Part shown: positions 10,936-45,221 of the stretch, piece by piece
How the letters are laid out: every line of letters starts with the position of its first letter
Position numbering within the stretch: the first letter of the stretch is position 1
Program-made: the position numbers and the translations under genes
The notes under the pieces: generated by a model
The model's database searches: none
Told to the model about the DNA's origin: nothing
What the model saw: the letters and a program-made list of their open reading frames with translations, nothing else
NCBI GenBank assembly: GCA_913056235.1
Contig: CAJXMW010000002.1
Location: forward strand, 124,001-188,000
Source: an uncultured Fodinibius sp.
GTDB lineage: Bacteria > Bacteroidota > Rhodothermia > Balneolales > Balneolaceae
Reading direction: 5' to 3'
DNA: 64,000 nt

Positions 10936-12207
10936 TTAAGCATCCTGATCTACGCGTTTAATATTGGCGCCTACGTTCCTAAGCTTTTGTTCCAGATCCT
11001 CGTAGCCACGGTCGAGGTGGTAGATCCGCAGTACATCGGTTGTGCCCTTGGCGACCATGCCAGCTAGCACCAGGCTTACGCTGGCACGCAGATCGGTACT
11101 CATTACCGAAGCGCCTTTGAGCGGTGTCTTGCCCTTGATATGGACCGTGTTTTGTTCCACATCCATGTCGGCGCCCAATCGTGTAACTTCGGGGACATAG
11201 CTAAATCGATCATCATAAATAGTGTCGGTGACCGAACAACTGCCTTCGGCTTGTGTCATCATCGTTGACCACTGGGCCTGCAAATCTGTTGGAAAGCCGG
11301 GATAAACTTTTGTTTTAATTGAAGTCGGGTTGATGGTGTCGGGCGCTTTAATGTGGATGGTGCTGTCTTCAATCGTCATATCCACACCTGTTTTGCGAAA
11401 GGTCTCGGGAAAGTGTCCCAAGTCATCCACATCCGCATTGGTGATGGTCACGTCCGACTCGGGATGCATGGCGGCGGCAATCATAAAGGTACCGGTTTCG
11501 ATGCGGTCGGAAGCGTTGCGGACTTCAATACCACTCAGGCTGTCCACGCCACGAATGGTGAGCGTGTCGGTACCAATGCCTTCAATATTAGCCCCCATCT
11601 CGGATAGCGTTTCACAAAGCAGTACCGCATCGGGTTCGCGGGCGGCATTTTTGATGGTAAATTCTTCAGCGCGCAGCACGGAAGCCAGCACGAGATTAAT
11701 TGTAGCTCCCACGCTGCTGGGTTCGAGTTTGAACGTGCCGCCCTTCATCTGCTTAGGGGCACTGGCAATTACATAGCCTTGGTCGAGCTCGATATCGACA
11801 CCCATTTCGCGCATGCCATCGAGGTGAAGGTCAACGGGACGAGGTCCCCATGCACAGCCGCCCGGCAATGAAACTTTAGCCTGGCCAAACTTACCGACCA
11901 GAGCGCCCAGCATATAAAAAGAGGCGCGCATTTTCCGCACGAGCTCATAGGGAGCTTCCAAATGTGAAAGATGTTTGGGGTCGATAGTGAGCGTTGCTTC
12001 CTCCTCATTAAAGTCCACATGTGTCCCGGTTACGCGAATCACATTATTAAATGTATAAACATCCCGGAGCTTGGGGACATTAGTAATGGTAGTGGGCGAA
12101 TCGCCGAGGATGGCGGTGGCCATCAAGGGGAGGGCCGCATTTTTTGAACCGCTAATGGGGATGGTTCCTTTGAGAGGGGTAGGTCCTTCTATAACAAATT
12201 TATCCAC
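10936..12207 (-). CDS. murA: UDP-N-acetylglucosamine 1-carboxyvinyltransferase MurA
   Basis: MurA transfers enolpyruvate from PEP to UDP-GlcNAc, the first committed step of peptidoglycan synthesis in the cytosol. The 423-residue protein has SGSKNAALP near residue 20 (the conserved Lys and Asn that bind substrate) and the catalytic cysteine in GGCAWGPRP (about 116), so it should be sensitive to fosfomycin. The only in-frame start that preserves the family N-terminus (MDKFVIEGP) is a GTG at 12207, eight bases inside the end of the biotin-carrier gene, which implies coupling to that gene. Length is normal. Confidence 0.96.
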
Positions 12208-26220: not shown

Positions 26221-29200
26221 ATGAACATCAAGAATGCCGATTTGTTATTTGCTGATAATCCTAATCCCATGTGGATTTATAACCCCTCAGATCTCTCTAT
26301 AAAACAAGCAAATGATGCAGCCTGTAAGCTTTATGGATATTCGAAGGACGAGTTTAGCTCGTTGACAATAACGGATCTGCGTCCAGAAAGCGAGATTCCA
26401 AAACTGAAAGAGGAGGTATCCAATCTGGAAGATACCTATAACGATGCGGGCAGGTGGAAGCATCAAAAAAAGAATGGAGATATTCTTTTTGTCCATGTGC
26501 AATCCCATCCCATTTCTGAGGGAAATAACCGATACAGACTTGTTACGGTCCAAGATGTAACGAATACCATGCAATATCGTCAAGAATTCCAACTACTGCT
26601 TGAAAATAGCTTGGATGGGATCATGCTTACGGGCCCAGATGGACAAATATACAAGGCCAACGACGCGGCTTGCGATATCTTAGGAATGTCGGAAGAACAA
26701 CTTATCGAGGTAGGGCGAGATGGCATTGTCCTTAGGGATGACAAACTTCAACGGGCCTTGGAAAAACGTAATCGAACGGGGCAATTTGCTGGGGAATTAA
26801 CGTTTCTTCACAGCTCGGGTAGGCAGATTCCGGTGGAATTGAGCAGCTCTGTGTATACGAATCCACGAGGCGAGCAACGGACAAGCTTGATCTTTCGAGA
26901 TATTACCGGGCGCAAGGAAACTGAGCAAAAACTACAGGATATTGTCACCCACAGTACCAATATGTTTTATCGGCACGGTCCCGATCATAAGCTTACCTAC
27001 GTGAGCCCGCAGTCCGAAGAATTTTTAGGATGTTCTCCAGAAGAGGCGAAACAACAATGGACAGAATTTCTTACCGATCATCCCACCAATCAAGAAGGAA
27101 TAAAACATACGGAAAAGGCCATCGAAACAGGTGAAAAACAACCGCCTTTCGAATTACAGTTGCAAAAGAAAACGGGTGAACGAATATGGGTTAAAGTAAA
27201 CGAAGCCCCGATTGTGGAGAATGGAGAGACCGTAGCTATTGTCGGCTCACTGGCTGATATTACCCAGCAAAAACAATATGAGCAGCAACTGGAAGAAAGT
27301 CTGGAGCGCTATGAATATGCCAGGAAAGCCACCAACGATGTTATTTATGAGTGGGATATAGAGGATGATACCCTTCATTTAGGAGAGGCGTTTAACACAA
27401 TATTTGGTCATTCCACGAGTTCAAATGGGGTTCCATTGGAGGAGTATACCCAGTTTGTTCATCCTGAAGACCACTCAGAAGCTCAGAAATCACTTGATCA
27501 CACCCTAAAAGATCCTTCAAAGCATCACTGGAGCCATGAATACCGGCTGAAGAAGTCTGACGGGGAGTATGCTATTGTCATCGAAAATGGGTACATCATT
27601 CGCAATGAAGAAGGCGTTGCTATGCGCATGATTGGCGCGATACGGGACGTCACGGAGCAACGGGAACTGGAGCAACTTCTTGAACAAGCCTATAGCATGG
27701 CACGCATCGGCGTTTGGGAATTAGACCTGCAGAAAGATACGCTGTATTGGTCCCCCATGACCAAAGAACTTCACGAAGTTGACCCAGATTTTGAGCCCGA
27801 TTTAGAAACGGGCATTTCCTTTTACAAAGAGGGGGAAAGCCGAAACACCATCAAGGAAGTTGTTGACAAAGCCATTGCGGACGGTACTCCCTGGGATGAA
27901 GAGCTACAGATCGTGACAGCCAACGGGAACGAGCGGTGGGTTCGATCGAAAGGGGAGCCCGAAATGGTGGAGGGGGAGTGCCGACGCCTATATGGAGTAT
28001 TCCAAGACATCCATGACCGCATGCAGGCGGAACAAGATCTGAGACGTATGTCACACATCATGAAAAATGCCCAGGAGATTGCCCATCTTGGAAGTTTTGA
28101 ATATGTAGTTGCCGATCAAACTACTATCTGGTCTGAAGAGGAATATCGCATTTATGGTCTTGACCCTAATAGTCCATCACCGGATTATCATGAGATGTTG
28201 GGAAAATATATTCATCCCGATGATGCTAACTTGCTTAATGACACGTTCATGACTGCCCTGCAAAATGAGGAGTTTTACGAGTTAGAACATCGCATAGTAC
28301 GACCAAACGGTGATGTAAGATGGGTACATGATAAAGCGCTTCCTTATTTTGATCAGGATGGCAACCTTTTGCGATACGTTGGAGCAACCCTTGATATTAC
28401 AGACCGGAAACAGAATCAAATCGAACTTGAAAAGGCCTACCAGGAAAAGGAAATCATTTTAGAAAGTATCGAGGACGGCTTCTTCACGGTAAACAGAAAT
28501 TGGATCGTTACCTATTGGAATAGTGCCGCTGAGCGCATGTTGCAGACCCCCAAAGAGACCATTCTGGGTGAACACTTATGGGACGTATTTGAAGATGCTA
28601 AAGACCTACCATCCTATACCAATTATCATAAGGTTATGGAGAAAGGCGTCTCCGTTGATTTTGAAGACTACTATGCCCCCTTAGATCGGTGGTATGATGT
28701 TAGTGCCTACCCTTCCGCGGATGGAATATCCGTATATTTTAAAAACATAACAGAACAAAAACAGAAAGAAGAGCAGCTGCAAAAATCTCTAAAAGAAAAA
28801 GAAACCCTACTGGCTGAGATTCATCATCGGGTAAAAAATAATTTGGCCGTGGTCTCGAGCATGATGCAGCTCCAGGCCTTCGATGAAAGTGACCAAAAGT
28901 TCAAACAAAAGTTACACGATAGTGTTAGCCGTATTCAAACCATGGGAACGATCCACGAGCTACTTTATCAATCAGAAAGCTTTTCGAGCTTGGCCGTTGA
29001 TCAGAATATCAAGAAATTAGTAACCGATATATCTCATACATTTCAGCCTAAGATTGATTTAGATATTTCATATGATATAGAAAAAATTAACTTGAATATT
29101 AATCAAGCGCTGCCGGTTTCCCTCATTATTAATGAGGTTGTTACAAATGTCTTTAAACATGCATTTGATGGCAAGGAAGAGGGGACACTTCAGATAGCTA

Positions 29201-29442
29201 TGAACAAAAAGAAGGACAATATTACACTTCGAATATCAGATAATGGGAAGGGGCTCCCACCTAATTTCCACATATCAAAAGATACCGGTTCGTTAGGAAT
29301 ACAATTAATCGATACGCTATCTCAACAGTTGGAAGGTAACTATAAGTATGAGTCTAACAACGGAGAAACTCAATTCATGCTCACCTTTACCAAGGCCGAT
29401 GTAAAAGGATCAAGTAATGCCTTGGGAAATAACTATGAGTAA
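26221..29442 (+). CDS. soluble sensor histidine kinase with about seven PAS domains
   Basis: This 1073-residue protein has no signal peptide or membrane segment. Seven PAS-type units of about 115-125 residues fill residues 1-850; several end with the PAC wording (for example RYVGATLDITDRK, RLYGVFQDIHDR, VAIVGSLADITQQ). The kinase is of the HisKA_2 type: EIHHRVKNNLAVVSSMMQLQ with the phospho-acceptor His at 868/869, a DHp hairpin, and an HATPase with NEVVTNVFKHAF (N box), DNGKGLPP and GSLGIQLIDTLSQQL. It would autophosphorylate in response to redox, light or small-molecule cues, but no cofactor is predictable. No response regulator is next to it; it is followed by a small unknown ORF and an MscS gene. 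Confidence 0.88.
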   Translation: MNIKNADLLFADNPNPMWIYNPSDLSIKQANDAACKLYGYSKDEFSSLTITDLRPESEIPKLKEEVSNLEDTYNDAGRWKHQKKNGDILFVHVQSHPISEGNNRYRLVTVQDVTNTMQYRQEFQLLLENSLDGIMLTGPDGQIYKANDAACDILGMSEEQLIEVGRDGIVLRDDKLQRALEKRNRTGQFAGELTFLHSSGRQIPVELSSSVYTNPRGEQRTSLIFRDITGRKETEQKLQDIVTHSTNMFYRHGPDHKLTYVSPQSEEFLGCSPEEAKQQWTEFLTDHPTNQEGIKHTEKAIETGEKQPPFELQLQKKTGERIWVKVNEAPIVENGETVAIVGSLADITQQKQYEQQLEESLERYEYARKATNDVIYEWDIEDDTLHLGEAFNTIFGHSTSSNGVPLEEYTQFVHPEDHSEAQKSLDHTLKDPSKHHWSHEYRLKKSDGEYAIVIENGYIIRNEEGVAMRMIGAIRDVTEQRELEQLLEQAYSMARIGVWELDLQKDTLYWSPMTKELHEVDPDFEPDLETGISFYKEGESRNTIKEVVDKAIADGTPWDEELQIVTANGNERWVRSKGEPEMVEGECRRLYGVFQDIHDRMQAEQDLRRMSHIMKNAQEIAHLGSFEYVVADQTTIWSEEEYRIYGLDPNSPSPDYHEMLGKYIHPDDANLLNDTFMTALQNEEFYELEHRIVRPNGDVRWVHDKALPYFDQDGNLLRYVGATLDITDRKQNQIELEKAYQEKEIILESIEDGFFTVNRNWIVTYWNSAAERMLQTPKETILGEHLWDVFEDAKDLPSYTNYHKVMEKGVSVDFEDYYAPLDRWYDVSAYPSADGISVYFKNITEQKQKEEQLQKSLKEKETLLAEIHHRVKNNLAVVSSMMQLQAFDESDQKFKQKLHDSVSRIQTMGTIHELLYQSESFSSLAVDQNIKKLVTDISHTFQPKIDLDISYDIEKINLNINQALPVSLIINEVVTNVFKHAFDGKEEGTLQIAMNKKKDNITLRISDNGKGLPPNFHISKDTGSLGIQLIDTLSQQLEGNYKYESNNGETQFMLTFTKADVKGSSNALGNNYE

Positions 29443-31483: not shown

Positions 31484-33256
31484 TTAGTTCAGGTTTGTGC
31501 TTCCTACCCCTTTAACGTCAGCCATCTCAAACTGTAATATGAACTTGCTTCCATTATCTCGTTGATATTCAATGGAGGCATTCAATTGTTCGCAGAGCGT
31601 TTGTATTATACGCATACCTAATGTTGCGGGCTGATGAATGTCAAAATCGTCCGGCAATCCAACACCATTGTCGGCAATAGTTAGGGTTACTACCTGGTGG
31701 TTGGTTTTCAGCGTGATATTGATGGTGCCTTTGGCTCTCTGTTTAAAGGCATGTTTGAAAGCGTTAGTAACCAGCTCGTTAACAATTAATGCGGCGGGAA
31801 TAGCCTGATTTACATTGAGTGTCGCATTCTCCAACTCATAATTAATGTCGACCTTTGTATCAGTTCGTAAGGTTTCATCTATGGTGGTTACCAGCTTTTT
31901 TATCTGCTTTGTAAAGTTAAGTTCTGTAAAGCTCTCCGTATCGTACAATAACTCATGGATGGAGGCCATTGACTGTATCCGAAGTTGGCTATCATGAAGT
32001 TTGTTGGATAAATGTTCACTCTCACTTTCCATAGCCTGCAGTTGCATCATCCCGGAAATAACCGCCAGATTATTTTTTACCCGGTGGTGTATTTCCTGCA
32101 GCAGTACTGATTTTTCACTTAGTGTTTCTTGCAATCGTTCTTCATAACTAATGTGCTCTGTAATATCCAACCCAACCGTTTGGGTAGCATTTTTGCCATT
32201 ATATACGATAGGTACAGATTCAAATTGAACGTAACGGTTTTGTCCACCGAGCCGCTCTATAACATAAACTTCTGGTGCTAGTTGTTCCTTCTCTTCTTCT
32301 ATTCTTTTTATTCGGTCAATAGCCTGACTTTTTTGTGCTTGATCGATATAGTCAAAAATTGATTCACCAATAAGATTTTCGGCTGAATCGGCACCTATCA
32401 TCTTGGCACCACCTTCATTAATAAATTGAACTTTTCCATCTATATGAATGAGTATCAGGCTCGGGTCTTGCTCGACCAGTGTCTCCCACCGCTTGAGGTT
32501 CTGCTCAGCTTTTTTGCGTATTTTTTGTTCTTCCTTGATATGTTCCTGTAACTTTTCTGTCATTTCATTAAAGGCTTGAGCAAGCTCGTCATGTTCCTCA
32601 AAACCGTCAATAGTAATCTTATCGTCAAGGTTACCGTTTGCTATAGACTTGGTTCCTTCAAGAAGTTTTCCGAGTGAATCAAGGATTTGTTTTCGTACTC
32701 GAAAGATCATATAAACGACAAATCCTATACCGGGAATCAAAATGAATAAAAACTGAAGGCGCTGATATACTTGTAAGGTCCGAACTTCTTGCAAGCGATT
32801 TTTTTCAAGTCTATGTGAGGCTGCCAGCAGCAACTGGATATCCGATCGGATACGTGCGGTCGCACGTTCCAGCAGGCGTTCTCGTTTTTCCGGTTGGTCC
32901 CGATATAATGATGGATTGTTATAAACTTCTTGAATAAGGGAAAATGACTGTTTTATTGAGGGAAGCGCATTAGTAACAACTCTGCGCGTCGGAAATTTTT
33001 CTATTTCAGTCTTTTTTTCTTGAAGGTCCTCGTATAACGTATTCCACTTATCGTAGTATCGTTGTTCTTCATAAGCCAGAAATTGTTCGGTAATAATATT
33101 AAGTTCTGACGCTCTTTTTGCGAATTTATTTACCCGATCTATTTGGTCAAGTTCATCACTTATCTGCCAGGTCGTGTAGAACAAAAATCCGAATAGCACC
33201 ACAACAGTGGCAACTGACAAAAGGGCGACAATATTCAGACGAGATTTTATAGTCAT
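31484..33256 (-). CDS. membrane histidine kinase (4HB sensor, HAMP, PAS, HisKA_2)
   Basis: The 590-residue kinase has TM1 (about 9-28), a helical periplasmic sensor of about 140 residues, TM2 (about 170-187), a HAMP linker (about 188-240), a coiled coil, one PAS domain (about 262-370, with PAC-like QTVGLDITEH) and a HisKA_2 kinase with EIHHRVKNNLAVISGMMQLQ (phospho-His about 389/390), NELVTNAFKHAF and DNGVGLPDDFD. Its ATG overlaps the stop of the upstream binding-protein gene by four bases, so the two are made together. The periplasmic helical domain is a good docking site for a liganded binding protein. No response regulator adjoins it. Confidence 0.88.
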   Translation of the reverse strand: MTIKSRLNIVALLSVATVVVLFGFLFYTTWQISDELDQIDRVNKFAKRASELNIITEQFLAYEEQRYYDKWNTLYEDLQEKKTEIEKFPTRRVVTNALPSIKQSFSLIQEVYNNPSLYRDQPEKRERLLERATARIRSDIQLLLAASHRLEKNRLQEVRTLQVYQRLQFLFILIPGIGFVVYMIFRVRKQILDSLGKLLEGTKSIANGNLDDKITIDGFEEHDELAQAFNEMTEKLQEHIKEEQKIRKKAEQNLKRWETLVEQDPSLILIHIDGKVQFINEGGAKMIGADSAENLIGESIFDYIDQAQKSQAIDRIKRIEEEKEQLAPEVYVIERLGGQNRYVQFESVPIVYNGKNATQTVGLDITEHISYEERLQETLSEKSVLLQEIHHRVKNNLAVISGMMQLQAMESESEHLSNKLHDSQLRIQSMASIHELLYDTESFTELNFTKQIKKLVTTIDETLRTDTKVDINYELENATLNVNQAIPAALIVNELVTNAFKHAFKQRAKGTINITLKTNHQVVTLTIADNGVGLPDDFDIHQPATLGMRIIQTLCEQLNASIEYQRDNGSKFILQFEMADVKGVGSTNLN

Positions 33257-33276
33257 TGTATGACGGTTATGCCTTC
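33248..33276. repeat. 29-bp exact direct repeat, copy 1
   Basis: The 29 bases spanning the kinase start and the end of the binding-protein gene are identical to 34370-34398. They encode the last residues (EGITVIQ and stop) of each binding protein and the first codons ATGACTATA of a kinase. This shows that the whole binding-protein/kinase junction was duplicated. Confidence 0.85.
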
Positions 33277-34302
33277 TGGATAAACTTTCTGGAGTGCCTC
33301 AAAATAGATAGCACTGTGAACGTCGGATTGTTTCGTAGTGTCATCAATACGTTGTTTTTCTTGTATAAACCAGCGCTGTTGTTCATTGAGTAAAAAAAGC
33401 ATTCTTTCACCTATCGTAAGCTCATACTCAATAGAAGCCCAAAGATCCTCAATAATACTCAAAGAAGTCTTCGTTTTTTCCGATACCAGTAATTTTGTTT
33501 GCTCTGGATGGCTTTTGATATAATCTTGCGCTTTTTTGAGAGCTTGAAGATATTTTACGATCGTCTCAGGGTGTTGTTGTATATACGTCTCAGAGGATAC
33601 GCCCAACCACAATGTTGAATGACCCAGTACAGAATTAAGTTTGAAAGTATTATCCTTCAACTTTTTCAGTATTTCAGAGGCATAAGGTTCCCAGCTGACT
33701 ACTGCATCTACCTGACCATTTTTTAACGCCATATAATGTTGTGATATATCGATATTTACCTTCTCAACCTGCTGCTCCTGAATGCCATGTTCCAATAAGA
33801 ACGTATCGAAAAAGTACTCCGATGTTGTTTCATAATATAAACCCACCTTTTTGTTCCTTAAATCCCGGGGGTTCTCTATGCCATGGTCGCGACGAGCAAT
33901 AATTTTTTGACTATTGCTCGTGTAAATCATCCCTGTAAATATTTTGAGGTTGAATTCCTTGTACTTCGAATAAGGCTTTGCCCCGGACAGAGCTCGCACC
34001 ACTGGAATTTCAGCAACATGTGCTATATCGAGGGTTCCTTGGTATAGCTCTTTCAATGATTTCTTTCCCGCTGTATGGGGATGGGCAATGACTTCCAGCC
34101 CCTCTTCCTCGAAAAAACCTTCAGACTGTGCAACAAAAAAAGCAGCTTCGCCCCAGAATGTGGTAACACCAACTTGAACGGTTGTAAGATCGGTAGGATT
34201 ATCATCGTTATTACTACAACCTACAAGTAGACCCAAAGCTAATATTGATATTAGCTTCATAACAAAAGCAAGATGCTTATTCTTTAATAAGAATACATCC
34301 AT
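33253..34302 (-). CDS. SsuA/THI5/NMT1-like lipoprotein binding protein coupled to a kinase
   Basis: The frame is open from 34344, but aligning with the paralogue at 34375 (MDIFLSNKSYL) places the start at 34302 (MDVFLLKNKHL). The 349-residue product has a lipobox LLVGC, then the type-2 periplasmic binding fold of the SsuA/NMT1 group: TVQVGVTTFWGEAAFFVAQSEGFFEEEGLEV, DIAHVAEIPVVRAL, NKKVGLYYETTSEYFFDTFL, GQVDAVVSWEPYA and STLWLGVSSETY. Relatives bind thiamine precursors, sulfonates, taurine or nitrate for ABC import, but no permease or ATPase gene is near. Its stop overlaps the kinase start, so it is probably the kinase's ligand receptor. Confidence 0.82.
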   Translation of the reverse strand: MDVFLLKNKHLAFVMKLISILALGLLVGCSNNDDNPTDLTTVQVGVTTFWGEAAFFVAQSEGFFEEEGLEVIAHPHTAGKKSLKELYQGTLDIAHVAEIPVVRALSGAKPYSKYKEFNLKIFTGMIYTSNSQKIIARRDHGIENPRDLRNKKVGLYYETTSEYFFDTFLLEHGIQEQQVEKVNIDISQHYMALKNGQVDAVVSWEPYASEILKKLKDNTFKLNSVLGHSTLWLGVSSETYIQQHPETIVKYLQALKKAQDYIKSHPEQTKLLVSEKTKTSLSIIEDLWASIEYELTIGERMLFLLNEQQRWFIQEKQRIDDTTKQSDVHSAIYFEALQKVYPEGITVIQ

Positions 34303-34369
34303 AACATTTGGTTGAATGCTAAACGCAGTTTCATATATCAACACAATCTTATGACTTTGAACGCCATAC

Positions 34370-34398
34370 TATAGTCATTGTATGACGGTTATGCCTTC
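34370..34398. repeat. 29-bp exact direct repeat, copy 2, with a vestigial kinase start
   Basis: Identical to 33248-33276. Here the frame begun by ATGACTATA runs only nine codons (M T I V W R S K S) to a TAA, whereas in copy 1 it opens the 590-residue kinase. So a kinase start was once attached to this binding-protein gene as well. Confidence 0.8.
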
Positions 34399-35409
34399 GG
34401 GATAAACAGCTTGCATTGGTTCGAAATTGATTAGTGTTCTAAAATCGATATCGGAGGTATCGGTGATATTATTCCGTTTCATCCACCGTGCCTGATCATC
34501 CAGTAGGGTAATCATGCGTTCACTGAGGGACAGTTCATAGTCGATATCATCCCAGGAAGCTTTAACGGCTGCTATCGAAACCCCGGTTCGCTGAGCTAAC
34601 AGCTGCTGGGTTTCATTCGGATATTTGCTGATATATTTCTGTGCCTGTCGAAGGGCCCGCATGTACTGGACTATAACCTCTGGATGTTGTTCTGCATAAC
34701 GGTCACGCGCAGTAGCTAGCCACAAGGTAGAATACGTAAGTTTGGTATCAAGAAAAATGGCGTTATTTCCGAGTTCTTGTTTGATATAGGTGGCATAGGG
34801 TTCCCAGTTTACGGCTATATCAACCTCTCCGTTTGTTATGGCCTTAACCTGCTCGTTGGGCTTCTTATCCACAAGAGTGAATTCTTCTTTTGCAATTTGA
34901 TGCTCCAGCAGAAATGAATCCAGAAAATAATCCAGTTGCGTACCTTGATATATAGCCACCTTTTTTCCGGTGATATCCCGTGGACCTGAAATGCCATGAT
35001 CTCGACGTCCGATAATATGCTGTATATCGTCCGAATAGATCATATCGGCAAATATTTGGAAGGAAGGAATTTCTTTTCTCGTGTAATACGAACTATCGAG
35101 AAGGGCGTACATAATAGGTGTTTCCGCTACATGGGCAATATCAATTTCTTCATCGAATAACTCCCGTATGGATACTGCACCGGAAGAATTTTGCTCCAGC
35201 TGAATATCAAGTCCTTCGTCCTTAAAGTACCCCTGTTGCTGTGCTACAAAGGTAGCGGCTTCTCCTAGAAATGATTTCGTAATGCCCACTCGAACGGTAG
35301 TAAGATCTGCTGAATCATCCTTGCCGTTGCAACCTGTAAATAAAGCCAAAGCCAAGATCAGCTCTATCGTAACGGTAAGATAACTCTTATTTGATAAGAA
35401 TATATCCAT
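34375..35409 (-). CDS. SsuA/THI5/NMT1-like lipoprotein binding protein, paralogue
   Basis: The 344-residue protein is a close paralogue of the product of 33253-34302, with the same lipobox (LFTGC), TVRVGITKSFLGEAATFVAQ, DIAHVAETPIMYAL, GKKVAIYQGTQLDYFLDSFL, GEVDIAVNWEPYA, STLWLATARDRY and the PEGITVIQ end. Some surface positions of the ligand cleft differ (TKSFLG versus TTFWG; YQGTQL versus YYETTS), so the two may bind different ligands. It is upstream of the other gene in the same direction, separated by about 70 bases that contain a vestigial kinase start. No ABC permease or ATPase follows. Confidence 0.82.
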   Translation of the reverse strand: MDIFLSNKSYLTVTIELILALALFTGCNGKDDSADLTTVRVGITKSFLGEAATFVAQQQGYFKDEGLDIQLEQNSSGAVSIRELFDEEIDIAHVAETPIMYALLDSSYYTRKEIPSFQIFADMIYSDDIQHIIGRRDHGISGPRDITGKKVAIYQGTQLDYFLDSFLLEHQIAKEEFTLVDKKPNEQVKAITNGEVDIAVNWEPYATYIKQELGNNAIFLDTKLTYSTLWLATARDRYAEQHPEVIVQYMRALRQAQKYISKYPNETQQLLAQRTGVSIAAVKASWDDIDYELSLSERMITLLDDQARWMKRNNITDTSDIDFRTLINFEPMQAVYPEGITVIQ

Positions 35410-35566
35410 CAGTTTTGGCTGTAACCTTCAATAGTTTTTGTAAGTCCAACAACTCTTAGTATTTAACCCTAAGCCGGATGAACTATTGCCAAGGGCATCC
35501 TAAAAAAATTATTAATATGGTACGATAAATTTAAAACGCATTAAAAACAAAACATTCTTCCCCTTA

Positions 35567-36694
35567 TCACTGTTCAAACTCCAACGTAAATGTTGTCCCC
35601 TGATCAGTTGAGTTAAAACGGAATTTCCCATCCAGTTGATTACTAAGTGTTTCAATGAGATTCATGCCCAGAGATCCTTGGGGACTTTCAAAATCGCCCG
35701 GAAGTCCCACGCCATTATCGCTGATCTTTAGTTGGATATCACCGTCGTCCTCATTGAGCTGAATATGGATACGCCCGGTTTCTCGTCCTTCAAAAGCATG
35801 TTTAATGGCATTAGTCACAACCTCGTTAGCAATCAAGGAGCAAGGCAGCGTTTGGGTGATGTCCAAGTAAACCGTATCGCAGTCACTTTCCAATTTAATG
35901 TGGGCATCTGCTTGCATGCTGTTAATTAATTCGCCGGCCAGATTTTTGAGATTCTCTCCCAGACTCACATTCTCTAAGTTATCCGACTGATACAACTGTT
36001 GGTGGATGCCGGCAACCGTTTTTATACGATTGGTACTTTCTCGCAATGACTTAACAACTTCGGGATCATCTTCTTGAAGCCACTGGAGCTGTAACATACC
36101 AGCAACCACTGCCAAGTTGTTTTTTACCCGGTGATGGATTTCCTGCAGCAGGGTATCTTTGGTATCTAAAGATTTTAGTATTTTATTTTTTTCTAACTCC
36201 CTTTCGGTTACATTTTGATTGGTTCCTATCGTAAGCTCAGGGTTTCCGTCTTCGTCATAAAAATGCTTCGCATGTGCTTCTACAAATTTTGTGATATCAT
36301 CGTCTGTTTGTATCCGAAAGACTACATGATAAAACTCTCCGTTTTGTAATGACTTTTTATACGCTTTCTCTATTCGCTCTCGGTCTTCGGGATGAACACA
36401 GTCAATAAATAATTCATAGGAAGGCGTAACGGAATAGGGGGCAAATCCAAATATCCGATAGGTTTCCTCTGACCAAAAAATTTCATTCTTCTGGTGATAA
36501 TCTTCCCAAGCACCGAGATCAGATATTTTTTGTGCTGATTCAACCCACTTGCGAAACCTTTGGAAATAATCCCTGGTCTCCGTTAGCTTATCCAACAACT
36601 TCTGCTTTTGATCTGCAGAAAAATCTCCCTCCTTTTCCAGCTGCTGAATCAGTTGGTTAAGATTCTCCTGAATTGTTGATTGAAGTGATTGCAT
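35567..36694 (-). CDS. soluble PAS histidine kinase (HisKA_2)
   Basis: I start at the ATG at 36694; the upstream start at 36700 is a TTG. The 375-residue protein has an N-terminal coiled coil (about 1-45, with ENLNQLIQQLEKEGD), a PAS domain (about 50-160, containing YRIFGFAP and a PAC-like IGTNQNVTER) and a HisKA_2/HATPase kinase with LLQEIHHRVKNNLAVVAGML (phospho-His about 187), NEVVTNAIKHAF and DNGVGLPGDF. There is no membrane segment. It belongs to the same kinase subfamily as those at 26221 and 31484 and is upstream of the binding-protein genes by about 160 bases. Confidence 0.86.
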   Translation of the reverse strand: MQSLQSTIQENLNQLIQQLEKEGDFSADQKQKLLDKLTETRDYFQRFRKWVESAQKISDLGAWEDYHQKNEIFWSEETYRIFGFAPYSVTPSYELFIDCVHPEDRERIEKAYKKSLQNGEFYHVVFRIQTDDDITKFVEAHAKHFYDEDGNPELTIGTNQNVTERELEKNKILKSLDTKDTLLQEIHHRVKNNLAVVAGMLQLQWLQEDDPEVVKSLRESTNRIKTVAGIHQQLYQSDNLENVSLGENLKNLAGELINSMQADAHIKLESDCDTVYLDITQTLPCSLIANEVVTNAIKHAFEGRETGRIHIQLNEDDGDIQLKISDNGVGLPGDFESPQGSLGMNLIETLSNQLDGKFRFNSTDQGTTFTLEFEQ

Positions 36695-37102
36695 AGTCAA
36701 ATGAAGTCTTGAGTAATGATTTTTTCGTTCATATTGACCAAACAGGCATTGAATCAGCTAGATTACCTGCATAACTCTTCATAGTAAAGATTTTGGGAGA
36801 GCTATACCAAGTAAAAACTTCGTATTTAAGAAGATGCCTACCGTAGTATGTGACAAGTACTCCCGTTTTAATATACCCCCCCCCTTATTTTCTAGATCAT
36901 AACGACATTATCTTCTTGATGTAATAGTTTCAGCAGTCACTGGCGAAAAGATTCAGTTAAGAAACTATTTTTTTGAAGGCCTGCTCTATGGTAAACATGT
37001 AGGGCAGGGTATCAACAATAGGATATGGATAAAAAAATCTCCCAAAATTTTTGAAGACATTGCCAGAGAGGATAAAGCTCGGACGACGGCCGATCAGTAT
37101 TT
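36695..37102. other. 408-base gap with an orphan open frame
   Basis: Between the kinase and the racemase genes. It contains a run of nine C at about 36876-36884 and the plus-strand open frame described at 36903. I see no terminator with a clear T-run. Confidence 0.5.
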
Positions 37103-38985: not shown

Positions 38986-40191
38986 TTATAGCAGTTGGGT
39001 GTAAGCAAATGCTGATATCCCTAAAAGATTGATAACAATAAATACGGTAACCGCAAATTTCTTAATCTTGCCACCGCCTTCCATATCCATCATCTTCATT
39101 TCATGGTCTTGGATGTATTTTTTGTGGAGCCAGACCAATCCTCCCGCGATCCAAACAAATACGAGGTTCATCCAGAAGGTGTAGTCAATTTTAAATTGCG
39201 TAATTTCTGATACTACGCGTCTGCTCTCTGGTATGATGTCAAGAAAGGTAAACAAACTGTTCAGGATTAAAGCCGTTAGTACAATACTGACAAACATTAC
39301 ACCGGCAATATACAATGCCACCCGCCATCCGTAGTATTTGGCATTGATGTGCACCAATGGGGGTACCATCAGGTCGGAATATATAAAGCCCATGATACCG
39401 GCAAAGAGTACCCCGTTTTGATTAAGCACCGTAGCGAGCGGAATGTTACCCATTGATCCAATGAACGTAAAGGCTGCTACGAAGGGTGCAATAGCGGCAT
39501 TTTCCAAAGCAATTACCCAGTCAGGCAGGTGCTGGACATCAGCCAGGAAAAGGCTTGCCCAGAACGATTCGGGCACCAGCACAGCCACAAAGCCGGCGAT
39601 GGTAAACCCGATGAGGATATCCTCCCAGGCCATCTTCCAGTCATTAACGAATTTATGGCCCACCAGCTGCCAGCCCTCCTTACTTCTGATACGCTTTTTC
39701 CAGTCAAAATCTTCGGTGAGTCCGTCACCCTCATGTTCTACTTTTTCACGGGCTGCCTTCAGCCAGCTTTCGGGATAGGTCCATTTAATGAGTAAGCTGC
39801 TAATAACAATAAGCACGAGTCCGCCGATAAGTTCCGCAGCAAGGAATTGCCATCCAAGAAAGATGAGAATCAGTATCCCTAGCTCAATGACCAGGTTTGT
39901 GGACGCAAACATAAAAGCCACAGCCGCCACAAAGTGAGCTCCTTTTTTTACGAGCGATCGCGCGGCTGCCAGGGCAGCAAAGGAGCAGGAAGAAGATGCC
40001 GCTCCGAAAAAGGTGGACAGGGAAATACTTCTTAGATCAGCGTCGCCCATGTATTTGGTGAGCTCTTTCTTGGGCACAAAGGCTTGGATCATCCCGCTCA
40101 CAAAGTAGCCGAGCACAAAGGCCCAGCCGGATTTCCAGAAAAAGCCTAGTGCCGTTTTCGCTGATTCACCATACAGACTTAAAAAATCCAT
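38986..40191 (-). CDS. DUF318/ArsP-type membrane permease in the copper operon
   Basis: I use the ATG at 40191 (MDFLSLYGESAKTALGFF); the longer frame starts with a GTG inside the copB end. The 401-residue protein has about eight to ten membrane segments and the family's first repeat FGAASSSCSFAALAAARSLV (with serines and a Cys in place of charged residues) and FIGSMGNIPLATVLNQNGVL. PF03773-type permeases move metal or metalloid species such as organoarsenicals; a Cu/Zn export role has been proposed for some members. Given copA and copB upstream, copper or another soft metal is the best guess. Confidence 0.8.
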   Translation of the reverse strand: MDFLSLYGESAKTALGFFWKSGWAFVLGYFVSGMIQAFVPKKELTKYMGDADLRSISLSTFFGAASSSCSFAALAAARSLVKKGAHFVAAVAFMFASTNLVIELGILILIFLGWQFLAAELIGGLVLIVISSLLIKWTYPESWLKAAREKVEHEGDGLTEDFDWKKRIRSKEGWQLVGHKFVNDWKMAWEDILIGFTIAGFVAVLVPESFWASLFLADVQHLPDWVIALENAAIAPFVAAFTFIGSMGNIPLATVLNQNGVLFAGIMGFIYSDLMVPPLVHINAKYYGWRVALYIAGVMFVSIVLTALILNSLFTFLDIIPESRRVVSEITQFKIDYTFWMNLVFVWIAGGLVWLHKKYIQDHEMKMMDMEGGGKIKKFAVTVFIVINLLGISAFAYTQLL

Positions 40192-40262
40192 ACAGACAAT
40201 AGGGTTGGTTTTTTGGAAATTGCGTTTTAAAAAACTGCTACTCAAATTAACCAATAACCAAT

Positions 40263-41027
40263 TTAAAACCACATGCGAACGCCGCCAAGCATACTTAGAT
40301 TGCTGACATGGCCGCCACCGGTGCGAGCCATGTCGGCGGTTTCGCCCAGCTTTCGCTCCCAGTTGATGCCGATATAGGGAGCAAATTCCCGTGCAAACTC
40401 ATAGCGAAGTCGGAAGCCAAGTCCAATATTGTTGAATCCGGATCCGACGCCCCACTCGGGTACCTCTTGCAGGGCAACACTAGTTTCAAAAACGGGCTGG
40501 CCGATCAATCGCTGGGTAAATAACAGATCATACTCGGCTTCCAGCGAAGCCGAAATATTGCCGTTTTCGCTGATGAACATCCCCCCATCAACATGGAAGA
40601 AATAGGGCGCCATACCCTGCAAGCCAATCACGGCAAACCCTCTGGATTTGTTCCCTCCACCTTCATAAGCTAGGTCGTAGCGGATCCCTCCCTGAATGTC
40701 GAAATACGGACCAATGGCTCGACTGTATAGGCCTTGAAACTCCATTTCAGCTTCCCGTTTGGTGGTTAGTGCTTCGCCATGGGATTTAAACCAGAACTTA
40801 TTTAAGCTTCCACCCACGTAGCCCTGCACTTCCCACATTAACGGATCAATGCCACTTACGCTGCGATACTCCAGCTTTTCAGCAATCAGATAGACGTAGG
40901 TTTTATCGTCCATCATCAGGTCGTTGCTGAACTCAGGGGCTTTTTGAGCAAAGGCCGAGCTGCTGGTTATTACAATGATAGCTAAGGTAGTGAGAATGAA
41001 TATTGACGTGCGTTTAATCATGGTCAT
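40263..41027 (-). CDS. copB: copper resistance protein B (CopB/PcoB outer-membrane protein)
   Basis: I choose the ATG at 41027 (MTMIKRTSIFILTTLAI), which gives a signal peptide cleaved near AFAQ. The mature part matches CopB: DDKTYVYLIAEKLEYR, a W-rich beta-barrel region, GYVGGSLNKFWFKSHGE, EYDLLFTQRLIGQP, FNNIGLGFRLRYEFAREFAPYIG and the terminal GVRMWF. CopB is an outer-membrane beta-barrel that works with CopA in copper resistance. The N-terminal Met-rich extension of many CopB proteins is missing here. The gene is 57 bases after copA. Confidence 0.9.
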   Translation of the reverse strand: MTMIKRTSIFILTTLAIIVITSSSAFAQKAPEFSNDLMMDDKTYVYLIAEKLEYRSVSGIDPLMWEVQGYVGGSLNKFWFKSHGEALTTKREAEMEFQGLYSRAIGPYFDIQGGIRYDLAYEGGGNKSRGFAVIGLQGMAPYFFHVDGGMFISENGNISASLEAEYDLLFTQRLIGQPVFETSVALQEVPEWGVGSGFNNIGLGFRLRYEFAREFAPYIGINWERKLGETADMARTGGGHVSNLSMLGGVRMWF

Positions 41028-41084
41028 TGTGGTGCAAATTTGTAAACAAAATAGCATTCGTTCGTAAAGGTTTCTTAGATCTAC

Positions 41085-42902
41085 TTAAGAGTAATCCTGT
41101 CCATAAATGCTGCCGTCTTCATCGGCCACCTGGACAACGCGAAACATGCCACGCTCCATGTGATAGAGAATATGGCAGTGGAAAGCCCATCGCCCTTTAT
41201 CACGCGGCGTAATGAGGGCTGAGATTCGCTGGGCCGGTTGTACGAGCAGGGTGTGTTGCCGGGGATTATACTGCTCATTTCCGTTTTCCAGCTCCATCCA
41301 CATGCCGTGGAGGTGAATGGGATGTTCCATCATGGTGTCGTTGACCAGCGTAAGCCGCAGGCGTTCGTTGTGTTTAAATTCGATGGGACCATCCACTTCA
41401 TGGAACTGTTTTCCATCAAACGACCACATGTAGCGTTCCATATTGCCGGTCAGATGGAGTTCTACGTCACGCTGCGCATCGCGGGTGTCTTTATTGGGAC
41501 GCAGGCTTTTCAGATCGTTATATACCAGCACTTTTCGTCCGTCGTTGCCGAGGCCGATACCGGGATCGCCGAGTCGGTCAAACTGGTTCTGGGCAATAGC
41601 TGCTGCGCCTGGGCCGTGCTTGTCTGGGCCATGTTTGATGGGGGATTTTGGATCTTTGGACATATCCATGTTGCCATGATCCATATTTCCGTGATTCATA
41701 TCCCCATGATCCATTTTTCCCATGTCGTCACCTTCCATATCCATGCCGTCCATCGACATCATCATGCCCATATCTTTCATATCGCGCTTGGGCCGTGGGC
41801 GTAGCTCGGGAACTGAGGCTTCCATGTCTTCACGGGGCGCAAGCGTTCCACGGGCATAGCCGCTTCGATCAAGCGATTCGGCAAAAATGGTATAAGGCTT
41901 TTCTTCTTTGGGCTCTACAACCACATCATAGGTTTCGGCAATACCGATGCGAAATTCGTCAATGGGTACCGGCTCTACATTTTGGCCATCGGCTGCTACC
42001 ACGGTCATCTCCAGGCCGGGAATGCGAACATCAAAAGCGGTAGTACCGGCTGATGCATTAATAAATCGCAGGCGTACTTTTTCGCCTTTCTTAAATAGGG
42101 CATTCCAGTTAGAGCCCGGACCGCGTCCGTTCATCAGGTAGGTGTAGGTGGCACCGGTGACGTCCAGCAGATCGGTTGCACTCATGCGCATGTTGCCGAA
42201 CATGGCATAGTCTTTAATGGCGTTGCCAAGACCGTTCTTTTTAACATCACTGAAAAATTCTCCAAGGTCTCGCTTCTGGTAATTGTAATATCCCTCCATT
42301 TTGATATTATTTGCCAACACGTCGTGGGGATCTTCGAAGGTCCAGTCAGAAAGCACAATCGGGTAGTCGCGATCATATTCAACAGGATCTTTCTCTGCGG
42401 GATCAATGACCAGCGGCCCGTAATGCCCCAACTGTTCCTGCAGACCAGAGTGACTATGGTACCAATACGTCCCGTTCTGCCGCACCGGATATCGGTATTC
42501 AAAGGTTTCACCGGGAGCTATGCCGTCAAAGCTGACACCGGGAACGCCATCCATCTGGAACGGCAGCAGGATACCATGCCAGTGGATAGAAGTTGTATCT
42601 TCCAGTTTATTTGTAACCCGAAGCATCACGTCCTGTCCTTCCTGCAATCGAATCAGCGGGCCCGGCACCGAACCGTTGATGCCAATGGCTTCCCCTTGTT
42701 TCCCATCAATTTTGTGCGGCATTTTGCCAATGGTCAGATCAATGATATTATCGGGGCCTTTAGGAGTTAACACATCTCGCTTTTCACTGCCGAAGCCTGC
42801 TAAGGCGTAACTCGGCAATACCGCACTTGCACCGGCAAAAGCTGCCAGTGAACCGGCATAGCGCAGGAATTTTCGACGTGTGATCGTGTTGTCGTCACTC
42901 AT
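41085..42902 (-). CDS. copA: multicopper oxidase CopA/PcoA (TAT-exported)
   Basis: The 605-residue protein has a twin-arginine signal (RRKFL at 9-13, then AGSLAAFAGASAVLPSYALA). Three cupredoxin domains supply the copper sites: IHWHG (about 103) and WYHSHSG in domain 1, and HPIHLHGMW and HCHILYHMERGM at the C-terminus, which hold the trinuclear centre and the type-1 site. The Met/His-rich insertion (about 375-425, many MDHGDM/MNHGNM units) is typical for CopA and can bind extra Cu(I). It oxidises Cu(I) or organic substrates in the periplasm. It starts the copA-copB-permease-DUF2231 run and is divergent from copR. Confidence 0.95.
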   Translation of the reverse strand: MSDDNTITRRKFLRYAGSLAAFAGASAVLPSYALAGFGSEKRDVLTPKGPDNIIDLTIGKMPHKIDGKQGEAIGINGSVPGPLIRLQEGQDVMLRVTNKLEDTTSIHWHGILLPFQMDGVPGVSFDGIAPGETFEYRYPVRQNGTYWYHSHSGLQEQLGHYGPLVIDPAEKDPVEYDRDYPIVLSDWTFEDPHDVLANNIKMEGYYNYQKRDLGEFFSDVKKNGLGNAIKDYAMFGNMRMSATDLLDVTGATYTYLMNGRGPGSNWNALFKKGEKVRLRFINASAGTTAFDVRIPGLEMTVVAADGQNVEPVPIDEFRIGIAETYDVVVEPKEEKPYTIFAESLDRSGYARGTLAPREDMEASVPELRPRPKRDMKDMGMMMSMDGMDMEGDDMGKMDHGDMNHGNMDHGNMDMSKDPKSPIKHGPDKHGPGAAAIAQNQFDRLGDPGIGLGNDGRKVLVYNDLKSLRPNKDTRDAQRDVELHLTGNMERYMWSFDGKQFHEVDGPIEFKHNERLRLTLVNDTMMEHPIHLHGMWMELENGNEQYNPRQHTLLVQPAQRISALITPRDKGRWAFHCHILYHMERGMFRVVQVADEDGSIYGQDYS

Positions 42903-42974
42903 AGCTGGTCTTTAGTTCTCAGTTTTAGTTTTCTTACAATCTAACTTTAGCATAGAATCGGAATATAACAGGTG

Positions 42975-43006
42975 AACCTTAAATCAAGCTTAAAACATTT
43001 AAGGTT
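42975..43006. promoter_or_regulatory. perfect inverted repeat, candidate CopR operator
   Basis: AACCTTAAAT and its exact complement ATTTAAGGTT with a 12-base centre lie in the 157-base region between the divergent copA and copR starts, where a two-component regulator is expected to bind. The half-site occurs again at 48411. Operator role is inferred. Confidence 0.55.
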
Positions 43007-43018
43007 AGAGTCTGTTAT

Positions 43019-43046
43019 TTTTGGTATGAAAATTTTTATACCAAAA
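43019..43046. promoter_or_regulatory. perfect inverted repeat next to the copR start
   Basis: TTTTGGTAT and its exact complement ATACCAAAA with a 10-base centre end 13 bases before the copR ATG. It could be an operator for autoregulation or a leader hairpin; it lies in the 5' part of the copR message. Confidence 0.5.
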
Positions 43047-43059
43047 TGTAGAGTCATCT

Positions 43060-43773
43060 ATGTGGATATTATTAGTGGAAGATGAAAAGCAGCTTGCCGG
43101 TAACCTCAAGCGGGGATTGGAAGAGGAAGGTCACGTCGTTGAAGTCATCCACGATGGAGAAGAAGCCGAGCTTCAGGGGATGGTCAGCGATTATGATGTT
43201 GTTATCCTTGACTGGCGGTTACCTAACCGGGATGGTAAGCAGATCCTGCAACACTGGCGCGAAGAGGATCGGACCTTCCCAGTTCTCATGCTGACGGCAC
43301 TGGGTGATCTGGATCACAAGGTTTCCGGGCTGGATGCGGGTGCTGATGACTACATGAGCAAGCCCTTCTCCTTCGAAGAGTTGCTGGCTCGCGTGCGTGC
43401 TCTGGGCCGGCGAAAGTCCGAAATTAAGGATACCGAAACGGTCTCTTTGGGACCTATTGAGCTGGACAGCCGGAAGCACAAGCTAAATATCTGTGGCATC
43501 GAACGGCCGCTTCGTCCCAAGGAGTTTACCTTGCTGGAACTGCTGCTTAAAGAACCGGAAGCAGTATTTTCCAAGACACAGATCGCCGAACGCGTGTGGG
43601 GATCGGCCTATTACGTGAGCGATAATACGATTGAAGCTACGATTTCGACGCTTCGCCAAAAGCTGGGCGAATCGTTTGAGGAATGTGATGAGGTAGCATG
43701 GGATGATTCCAATAGCATTATTGAAACCATTCGGGGTGCTGGATACCGACTGAATAGTGAGTTTATTAACTAG
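43060..43773 (+). CDS. copR: OmpR-family response regulator (CopR/CusR-like)
   Basis: The 237-residue protein has a receiver domain (LLVEDEKQLAGNLKRGL with acidic Glu/Asp pocket, phospho-Asp 51 in LDWRLP, Thr in MLTALG, Lys in MSKPFSF) and a C-terminal winged helix (about 140-235: RKHKLNICGIERPLRPKEFTLL). The pair with the kinase gene two bases downstream fits a two-component system. Its place opposite copA and the inverted repeats between them suggest copper-responsive control of copA-copB and itself. The name follows context and similarity, not test. Confidence 0.82.
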   Translation: MWILLVEDEKQLAGNLKRGLEEEGHVVEVIHDGEEAELQGMVSDYDVVILDWRLPNRDGKQILQHWREEDRTFPVLMLTALGDLDHKVSGLDAGADDYMSKPFSFEELLARVRALGRRKSEIKDTETVSLGPIELDSRKHKLNICGIERPLRPKEFTLLELLLKEPEAVFSKTQIAERVWGSAYYVSDNTIEATISTLRQKLGESFEECDEVAWDDSNSIIETIRGAGYRLNSEFIN

Positions 43774-43775
43774 AA

Positions 43776-45221
43776 ATGAGTAGAATTGTGAGTAGTATAA
43801 CGAGCTTTTTTGATCGCCTGTCTATCTCCAAGAAGCTGGCTTTTTGGTACGGCCTTAGCCTTTTCGTGATGCTCAGCCTGTTTGGGTATTTTCTGTATGA
43901 GACCTTTCATAATTCCATTCATCACAATTATGATCGGCACCTTCGATTTGAAGCCGAGCAGTTGCTTTCCTATATCCATACCGGAGATTCACTCTCTATT
44001 GATCTTACCGGATATAGCCGGAACGCAGCACTTGAAAGCGGGGTCGAATATGGGACCTATGTTCGGCTGTATAACAAGCACGATAGCCTGATTTATAAAA
44101 GCCCCAACTTTGCGGAGGCAAAACAAGCGCTAACTACAGAACTTCCTGACAGGCCCGAAGAATATTCCTTTAGCAGCCAGTGGCAGGATCTTCCCGCACG
44201 GACATTGTTTTATCCAATAATGAATGAGAGTAATGAATTTTGCGGATGGCTGGAAGTCACCGGCTTCGAGTGGACCCTACATGAGGAGCTAAGTCGGTTC
44301 AGGCAGTATCTGTTGGTTCTGATTGCGATAAGTGTGGCGTTTTCTATTCTGGGAGGATACTGGCTATCACGAAGAGCGCTAACGCCAGTAGCTTCTATTA
44401 ATGAAGCAGCCAAATCCATTACGGCTACCGATTTGGATAAACGCATTCCGGTAAACTACCAAGTGAAAGATGAATTGACGGACTTGGCCGAAACTTTTAA
44501 CATGATGCTGAACCGCCTGCAAAAGGGTTTTGAGCGAGAAAAACGCTTTACATCCGATGCCGCCCATGAACTTATGACTCCTCTGTCGTCGATGCGCAGT
44601 GATGCCGAGATCATGCTCCGAAAACCGCGTTCCAAGGAGGAGTACCAGGAAACGATCCAGCGCATGCTGACTGAAGTTCGAAAAATGAGTGAAATGGTGC
44701 ATCTGTTGCTACAACTTTCACGGGTAGAATCGGTGCACCGATCCAAGCCCGATACCGTGAATATAAGCCGAATTACCGAAGCAGTAGTCGATCAGCACCG
44801 GGAAGATGCCGATCGCAAAGAGATTACAGTCCAAACGCAGATTGATCCTGAACTGCAAGTCCAGGCGCATGGAGCCTATATCGAAGAGGTTCTCAACAAT
44901 CTGCTGGAAAATGCGGTAAAGTATACACCGGAAGGTGGGCAGGTCACCATTCAATTGCAACGCAGCAGTGGCAAAGCCGTTATTCACCTTAGCGATACCG
45001 GGATCGGTTTTGATGAGGAGACTAAAAAGCACCTGTTTGAGCGATTCTATCGTGCGGATGAATCGGAAGTACAGGAGCAAACTGGGAGCGGCCTGGGACT
45101 TCCACTCGTTAAAGCTATCGTAGAATTATATGGGGGGAGAATTAGAGCTTACAGCGAAGGAGAGGGGAAAGGAAGTACGTTCGTGGTCGAACTCCCGCTG
45201 GCAGAAGATAAGCAGGCTTAA
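43776..45221 (+). CDS. copS: sensor histidine kinase of the copper two-component system (CopS/CusS-like)
   Basis: The 481-residue kinase has two membrane segments (about 18-40 and 165-185) enclosing a periplasmic sensor of about 130 residues, HAMP, HisKA and HATPase. The H-box is DAAHELMTPLSSM with His264, where the usual Arg or Lys of the HELRTPL wording is Met. HATPase boxes: NNLLENAVKYTP (N), DTGIGFDEETKK and GSGLGLPLVKAIVELYGG. It overlaps the methyltransferase gene end by four bases from the opposite side. Signal sensed is inferred (copper) from the neighbouring genes. Confidence 0.83.
   Translation: MSRIVSSITSFFDRLSISKKLAFWYGLSLFVMLSLFGYFLYETFHNSIHHNYDRHLRFEAEQLLSYIHTGDSLSIDLTGYSRNAALESGVEYGTYVRLYNKHDSLIYKSPNFAEAKQALTTELPDRPEEYSFSSQWQDLPARTLFYPIMNESNEFCGWLEVTGFEWTLHEELSRFRQYLLVLIAISVAFSILGGYWLSRRALTPVASINEAAKSITATDLDKRIPVNYQVKDELTDLAETFNMMLNRLQKGFEREKRFTSDAAHELMTPLSSMRSDAEIMLRKPRSKEEYQETIQRMLTEVRKMSEMVHLLLQLSRVESVHRSKPDTVNISRITEAVVDQHREDADRKEITVQTQIDPELQVQAHGAYIEEVLNNLLENAVKYTPEGGQVTIQLQRSSGKAVIHLSDTGIGFDEETKKHLFERFYRADESEVQEQTGSGLGLPLVKAIVELYGGRIRAYSEGEGKGSTFVVELPLAEDKQA

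Follow-up and report, generated by a model that had tools for sequence, protein, structure and literature searches.

Importer-fold lipoproteins encoded beside a HisKA_2 kinase in Fodinibius probably serve sensing and not uptake

What do two lipoproteins with the fold of ATP-binding cassette (ABC) importer proteins do beside a sensor kinase gene, with no importer gene near them? This question is raised by a cassette on the minus strand of a 64,000-nucleotide stretch (the window) of an uncultured Fodinibius sp. genome (G000), where the open reading frames (ORFs) run in the order HK2, BP2, BP1, HK1 on a 603-kb contig (C2). BP1 and BP2 are the two substrate-binding proteins (SBPs), HK1 is a membrane histidine kinase and HK2 is a soluble kinase. 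Comparison with related genes leads us to conclude that the BPs and HK1 probably form an SBP-dependent sensor kinase system, which would sense an outside solute and not import it. The cassette has no matching importer, and its pairing recurs among relatives from several bacterial groups, so the BPs most likely sense an outside chemical.

HK1 (31484-33256, minus) encodes a two-transmembrane (TM) sensor histidine kinase with Pfam matches to HAMP (30.3 bits), PAS_9 (31.5 bits), HisKA_2 (78.2 bits) and HATPase_c (42.8 bits). An outer four-helix bundle (residues ~30-165) is followed by TM2, HAMP (187-238), PAS (270-367), HisKA_2 (388-460) and the HATPase domain, and the H, N and G boxes of a HisKA_2 histidine kinase are all present (HHRVKNN, NELVTNAFKHAF and DNGVGLP). 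The sensor module, residues 1-190 (TM1, helical outer domain and TM2), corresponds to 32687-33256 (minus). BP1 (33253-34344, minus) overlaps HK1 by 4 bases, ATGA (33253-33256, minus), which hold the BP1 stop and the HK1 start; BP2 lies at 34375-35409 (minus). An earlier interpretation from the DNA letters (the sequence-only reading) had described two SsuA/NMT1-type lipoproteins, a stop shared with a kinase start and a HAMP-PAS-HisKA_2 membrane kinase, and all three descriptions held.

Both BPs belong to Pfam NMT1 (PF09084; BP1 100.3 bits, BP2 79.9 bits, gathering cut-off 20.5), are 45% identical to each other and have a visible lipobox cysteine (BP1 residue 43, ...LGLLVGC, codon 34216-34218; BP2, ...LALFTGC). 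The BP1 start is probably at 34302 or 34260. Against NCBIfam SsuA_fam (TIGR01728) they score 109.4 and 94.7, both under the curated cut-off of 163.5, and the name 'sulfonate ABC SBP' is therefore unsuitable. Nor are they of the AioX type as judged by Phosphonate-bd (PF12974), against which BP1 reaches 22.8 bits (cut-off 27 bits) and BP2 has no match. By sequence BP1 scores 88 bits to TauA, and identity to TauA/SsuA is 17-20%. A BP1 structure model (predicted local distance difference test, pLDDT, 92.1) best matched SsuA (2x26_A; Z 29.8, root-mean-square deviation (rmsd) 3.0 over 284) and TauA (6ssy_B; Z 29.8), followed by CmpA/NrtA and the regulatory domains CmpC/NrtC.

We searched for a partner importer with the permease family PF00528 in the 17 genomes that had a BP1 match. 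Since 16 of them gave permease matches, the search works. No PF00528 permease was found on the 603-kb contig, which extends to the whole contig the earlier claim that none is near; all seven matches of G000 fall on two other contigs, C1 and C4. In the 11 clade genomes, the nearest permease sharing a contig with a clade BP is ~280 kb from it, and several of these genomes have none on that contig; some of the contigs concerned are short. Five genomes carry only weak NMT1 proteins, and in three of these (G039, G003 and G001) a permease lies within ~3 kb, so the search is able to detect such genes. A TauC/SsuC-type permease query returned nothing in 7 of the 12 pair-bearing genomes and partial matches of 39-44 bits within 505-543-aa frames in the other five; the sole match in G000 scores 39 bits inside a 543-aa ORF. 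The nearby permease and ATPase that would mark an ABC-importer SBP are absent at the cassette. In G018, an ABC ATPase of unassigned type and an 850-aa many-TM protein lie ~3 kb downstream of HK1, and their size suggests an exporter-like pair.

The pairing of BP and kinase is conserved in Balneolales. The BP1 query matched 17 of 92 family genomes, with 16 proteins in 11 genomes exceeding 200 bits; below these came a 75-bit fragment (G044) and then five matches of at most 54 bits. A profile of HK1 residues 1-250 matched along its whole length at 12 sites, all in these 11 genomes (at least 337 bits, E<1e-100), and the next match, of 56 bits, was mostly over TM2 and HAMP. Class-wide (244 genomes) the sensor occurs in 13 places in 12 genomes, the extra one (G126) belonging to the same taxonomic order, and an evenly drawn phylum sample of 394 genomes contained it in seven, all previously found. 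The exact 4-base overlap of BP and kinase is kept in 12 of the 13 Balneolales sensor loci, and in the 13th (G014) the two genes converge, with 27 bases between them. Across the 13 pairs, BP and sensor distances correlate (r 0.53, a value reached in 1 of 10,000 permutations). The sequence-only reading had proposed sensing rather than uptake, and both comparisons, of ABC genes at homologous loci and of conserved neighbours, support this proposal; contact between BP and kinase, the ligand and the direction of the response are inferred.

Conserved synteny was considered as a trivial reason for the pairing and rejected, for the flanks mostly differ. The 13 loci are spread over ~10 flanking contexts; at least seven flanking genes are common only to G010/G015b and to G065/G067/G068, and at least one to 28 of 78 locus pairs, mostly kinases. 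The G044 fragment (L034 5396-5818; 138-141 residues) has an internal stop in a genome with no HK1-type sensor and is a decayed copy.

The outer part of HK1 has no family name. Its sensor module matched no Pfam family at threshold (only sub-threshold matches at E up to 10), for which reason a Pfam-based name was dropped, and a search by sequence for solved relatives gave a best E of 0.18. The AlphaFold model of residues 1-250 is a four-helix bundle (pLDDT 86.5; helices 3-62, 65-85, 91-113 and 122-206). With the sensor model, Foldseek placed NarQ alone under E 0.001 (top match, E 5.5e-4), and VIA-align ranked McpS first (Z 14.8), then LytS (13.8; rmsd 1.9, 116 residues), NarQ (12.8), QseE (11.9) and TorS (11.0). 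By hhalign the sensor profile resembles that of distant kinases at L060, L062 and L063 (prob 90%, E 1.5e-6). The output behind this input varies already within Balneolales: in G058 and G078, HisKA takes the place of PAS-HisKA_2 behind the same sensor.

How far does the association reach? Exact peptide patterns from BP1 alone found no relatives, whereas a scan of genome contigs with a BP alignment gave 79 loci, in 65 of which a BP ORF was called (the other 14 were unscored). Twelve of the 65 BPs reach the C-terminal end of the profile (position at least 343 of 346). Each of these lies no more than 200 bases from a kinase or GGDEF gene, and five of them are Balneolaceae loci again. Among the other 53, two meet the same 200-base rule (L066 and L098), one (L073) adjoins a HAMP-PAS transducer that is truncated where the contig ends, and 31 lie no more than 3 kb from a gene resembling an ABC permease or ATPase. 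These neighbour labels come from phmmer seeds and motif scans, not Pfam, and 'sensor-linked' was set by hand for 16 Balneolaceae BPs and L073. Outside Balneolales the partners are (i) HisKA kinases at L060 (next to genes for a NarL-type regulator and for a REC protein), L062 (next to one for a REC protein) and L063, (ii) a hybrid kinase at L066 and (iii) GGDEF proteins at L061, L064 and L065, and the sensor-linked lineage extends to Desulfobacterales, Nitrospirae and Proteobacteria. Output domains are thus swapped behind a similar input.

A quick tree of 76 BPs, which leaves out L053-L056 and L058 as copies of genomes already included, has 25 sensor-linked BPs and two unassigned ones (L069 and L078) on one side of a branch (Shimodaira-Hasegawa-like approximate likelihood ratio test, SH-aLRT, 96) and 31 ABC-linked, 17 unassigned and one sensor-linked BP (L098) on the other; the tree program warns of long branches among distant rows. 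The same division appears in the C-terminal helix. Tryptophan at BP1 residue 325 is present in 25/25 sensor-linked rows, 0/31 ABC-linked rows and 2/19 unassigned rows (L069 and L078), and all 25 sensor-linked rows have Q or E at residue 322. We refer to residues 322-325 (33370-33381, minus, in BP1) as the (Q/E)xxW signature, which marks one BP lineage. L098 was kept out of the 25-row set on account of its place among the ABC-linked BPs; it has A and F instead of Q/E and W. The patterns of the alignment scan do not cover the signature region, and the region is not an extra domain, because the SsuA structure aligns up to residue 311 of 321 in the BP1 model.

Plasmids provided a further comparison. 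A tblastn search with BP1 returned 484 records, eight of which were fetched, and the BP frame was recognised in six. All three of these BPs with the signature directly precede a two-TM GGDEF protein; the two genes overlap by 7 bases in Vibrio nigripulchritudo and by 4 in Pseudoalteromonas xiamenensis and are 3 bases apart in Vibrio sp. THAF191d. Of the three BPs without the signature two are beside ABC genes and one is an orphan. At L134 and L137, where the ORF caller missed the BP, it is beside ABC genes or ABC-like ORFs. One ABC-linked plasmid BP (L140) combines a Trp aligned at 325 with an Ala at 322, and the Trp by itself is therefore no diagnostic mark.

SBP-activated kinases are already known as a kind, with TorS and LuxQ being hybrid kinases and XylFII a member of a sugar-binding SBP family; apparently new here are the NMT1-fold receptor and the unnamed four-helix input domain. 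Complexes of an SBP with its kinase have been solved for LytS, TorS and LuxQ (PMC6321045). XylFII-LytS (PDB 5XSJ, D-xylose), one of these complexes, couples an extracytoplasmic SBP to a kinase whose outer domain is a helical bundle, as is modelled for HK1, but BP1 is of the NMT1/SsuA type and the HK1 transmitter is HisKA_2 with PAS, without an adjoining response regulator. In AioX-AioS-AioR (arsenite), a stand-alone SBP that belongs to no transporter adjoins a kinase (PMC5908839); however, AioX is PhnD-like and the three-gene operon includes the regulator. CuaD-CuaS-CuaR (cellobiose) shares a signalling-dedicated lipoprotein SBP beside a kinase, with binding seen in a two-hybrid assay (PMC10384115), and differs in its sugar SBP, the ABC importer in its target operon and the regulator gene in its own. 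TorT-TorS and LuxP-LuxQ are SBP-activated kinases with solved complexes (PMC6321045) that use other SBP families and other outer domains. The importer SBPs TauA and SsuA have the same fold as BP1; unlike them, BP1 has no permease or ATPase partner, and its signature is missing in 31/31 ABC-linked relatives. For the GGDEF-linked loci (L064, L065, L133 and L135) the parallel is ArtI-STM1987, in which an SBP is required for signalling via a membrane GGDEF protein (PMC8846402), although the outer domain is dCACHE and the SBP different. Of 27 PBP-clan families, network studies of cyclic di-GMP (c-di-GMP) covered only SBP_bac_3 (PMC8846402), and 13 SBP families that interact with receptors are known (PMC9602780). 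Among the matches listed in the literature searched, there was no published pairing of an NMT1/SsuA/THI5-like SBP with a kinase or cyclase, nor a Balneolaceae case.

In the mechanism we favour, BP1 and probably BP2 would be membrane-tethered receptors, presumably on the periplasmic side, and their SsuA-type cleft would hold a small solute. To judge from TauA and SsuA, the closest relatives with solved structures, the first candidate is a small anion, for instance a sulfonate. The outer four-helix bundle of the HK1 dimer would be the docking site of the BP, whose occupancy by ligand would alter the bundle, HAMP and PAS, and the HisKA_2 kinase would then alter the phosphorylation of a response regulator encoded elsewhere.

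Several observations weigh against such a system. No response regulator adjoins HK1. In Foldseek the LytS of the XylFII complex came 11th (E 0.088, target template-modelling score 0.80), and in VIA-align the designed bundle 6egc scored Z 13.5, on par with LytS, as do unrelated helical bundles. Because helical bundles score alike, the LytS match is compatible with SBP docking and no proof of it, and LytS-type sensor ancestry is not claimed, Z ~13 being common among such bundles. The sensors of GGDEF partners resemble the HK1 profile weakly (hhalign prob 41%, E 2.8e-4), BP and HK trees agree in just 6/10 splits, and the BPs at L069 (Marinicaulis) and L078 (Aurantiacibacter) carry the signature with no adjacent transducer found. 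Finally, although 10 of 11 characterised SBP-kinase couples are gene neighbours, AgtS and AruS have a neighbouring SBP that does not bind, so that adjacency is not always coupling (PMC11113362).

The last point also favours a different explanation, in which the BPs serve a distant ABC importer and the adjoining kinase either controls this importer or is beside them by chance. Orphan SBPs often work with distant transporters, and G000 does hold PF00528 matches on other contigs. Nevertheless, the TauC/SsuC-type query was empty or partial in all pair-bearing genomes, the 4-base overlap is kept at nearly every locus and permeases were detected near three of the five weak NMT1 proteins, which together make an importer function very unlikely. 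Alternatively, the HK1 bundle could sense ligand directly, as NarQ or McpS do, with the BP concentrating the ligand or modulating the response; NarQ and McpS are indeed the top matches of the sensor model in Foldseek and VIA-align. This we consider unlikely, given that BP and sensor co-occur strictly and that the CuaDSR kinase can respond weakly without its SBP, which makes the system efficient (PMC10384115).

A closer question is whether BP1 alone signals to HK1, with BP2 a relic or in a separate role. Proteins grouping with BP2 in G065, G067, G068, G058, G078, G010, G015b and G126 have their own kinase (joining branch SH-aLRT 93). In G018 (L024 ~11275-11370, minus) the BP2 stop overlaps a 31-codon frame resembling kinase TM1, and in G000 it overlaps a 9-codon frame (ATGACTATA plus 9 codons up to the stop; 34349-34378, minus), a putative relic kinase start. 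The short frames probably remain from a second kinase, formerly BP2's own, that was lost. This loss, and the fact that only BP1 overlaps HK1, speak for BP1 as the single receptor. However, the ratio of nonsynonymous to synonymous substitution rates (dN/dS) between G000 and G013 is 0.18 for BP2, close to the 0.14 of BP1 (HK1 0.12, sensor 0.09), and by this measure BP2 is under purifying selection, as is BP1. BP2 has also stayed intact, with gene order unchanged, in G000, G013 and G018; in G018 a single kinase is surrounded by BP2, BP1 and a third, convergent BP. We regard a role for BP1 alone as possible but somewhat doubtful; from the constraint on BP2, the relic of its kinase and the three BPs of G018, several receptors may share HK1. 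The earlier idea of two paralogues reporting to one kinase has thereby gained some support, from BP2 dN/dS and from the three BPs and TM1-like remnant of G018. The final ~25 bases of BP1 and BP2 (33253-33285 and 34375-34405) are near-identical inside G000 and inside G013 (L023) and differ between the two genomes, a pattern that is absent in G018 and looks like gene conversion.

The SBP-dependent sensing system we favour may be one instance of something wider. In this broader proposal, whose chances we put as about even, an NMT1-fold lineage left ABC transport and fixed the C-terminal (Q/E)xxW as a docking signature; together with the unnamed four-helix outer domain it would form a cross-phylum cassette, a plug-in input for HisKA_2, HisKA, hybrid-kinase and diguanylate-cyclase outputs, and in the Fodinibius group two to three receptors per kinase would act as a multi-ligand nose. 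BPs of the signature type are currently annotated 'ABC transporter substrate-binding protein'. If the proposal is true, receptors make up a recognisable share of the NMT1 family, and annotators could use the signature to split them from importers and to locate the partner kinase or cyclase. One input on varied outputs would also be a natural test of phosphorylation versus c-di-GMP responses to one outer signal, and two or three receptors per kinase would permit a direct test of signal integration.

HK2 (35567-36700, minus; start TTG, or ATG at 36694) is a soluble PAS-HisKA_2 kinase (PAS_3 69.8 bits, HisKA_2 84.3 bits), as the sequence-only reading had described it. Its inclusion in the cassette did not hold up: an HK2 ortholog adjoins the cassette in only 1 of 12 other Balneolales loci (G018, 72% identity), for which reason HK2 was rejected as a fixed member and is an optional neighbour outside the conserved core. 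A third HisKA_2 kinase, soluble, of 1073 aa and with many PAS domains by Pfam, lies on the cassette's other side (26221-29442, plus), and several cassette loci have HisKA_2 kinases in their flanks. The claim that no response regulator is near was correct for genes adjoining the cassette but not for the wider surroundings, where an OmpR-type regulator (43060-43773) lies ~6.4 kb from HK2, the nearest of 36 REC matches in G000 and paired with its own HisKA kinase directly after it (43776-45221), beside copper genes. Ten REC frames of G000 are short, at 127-159 aa. Positions 38986-45221 form a copper-response group of an ArsP-type permease, CopB and a multicopper oxidase, then the divergent regulator and kinase. 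Promoter and terminator scans were uninformative (18 promoter-like sites versus 14.9 expected). In G058 (L031 1471-4785, minus), a soluble HisKA kinase unrelated to HK2, preceded by a B12-binding-domain protein, is found 2 bases upstream of the BP, in the position that HK2 has in G000.

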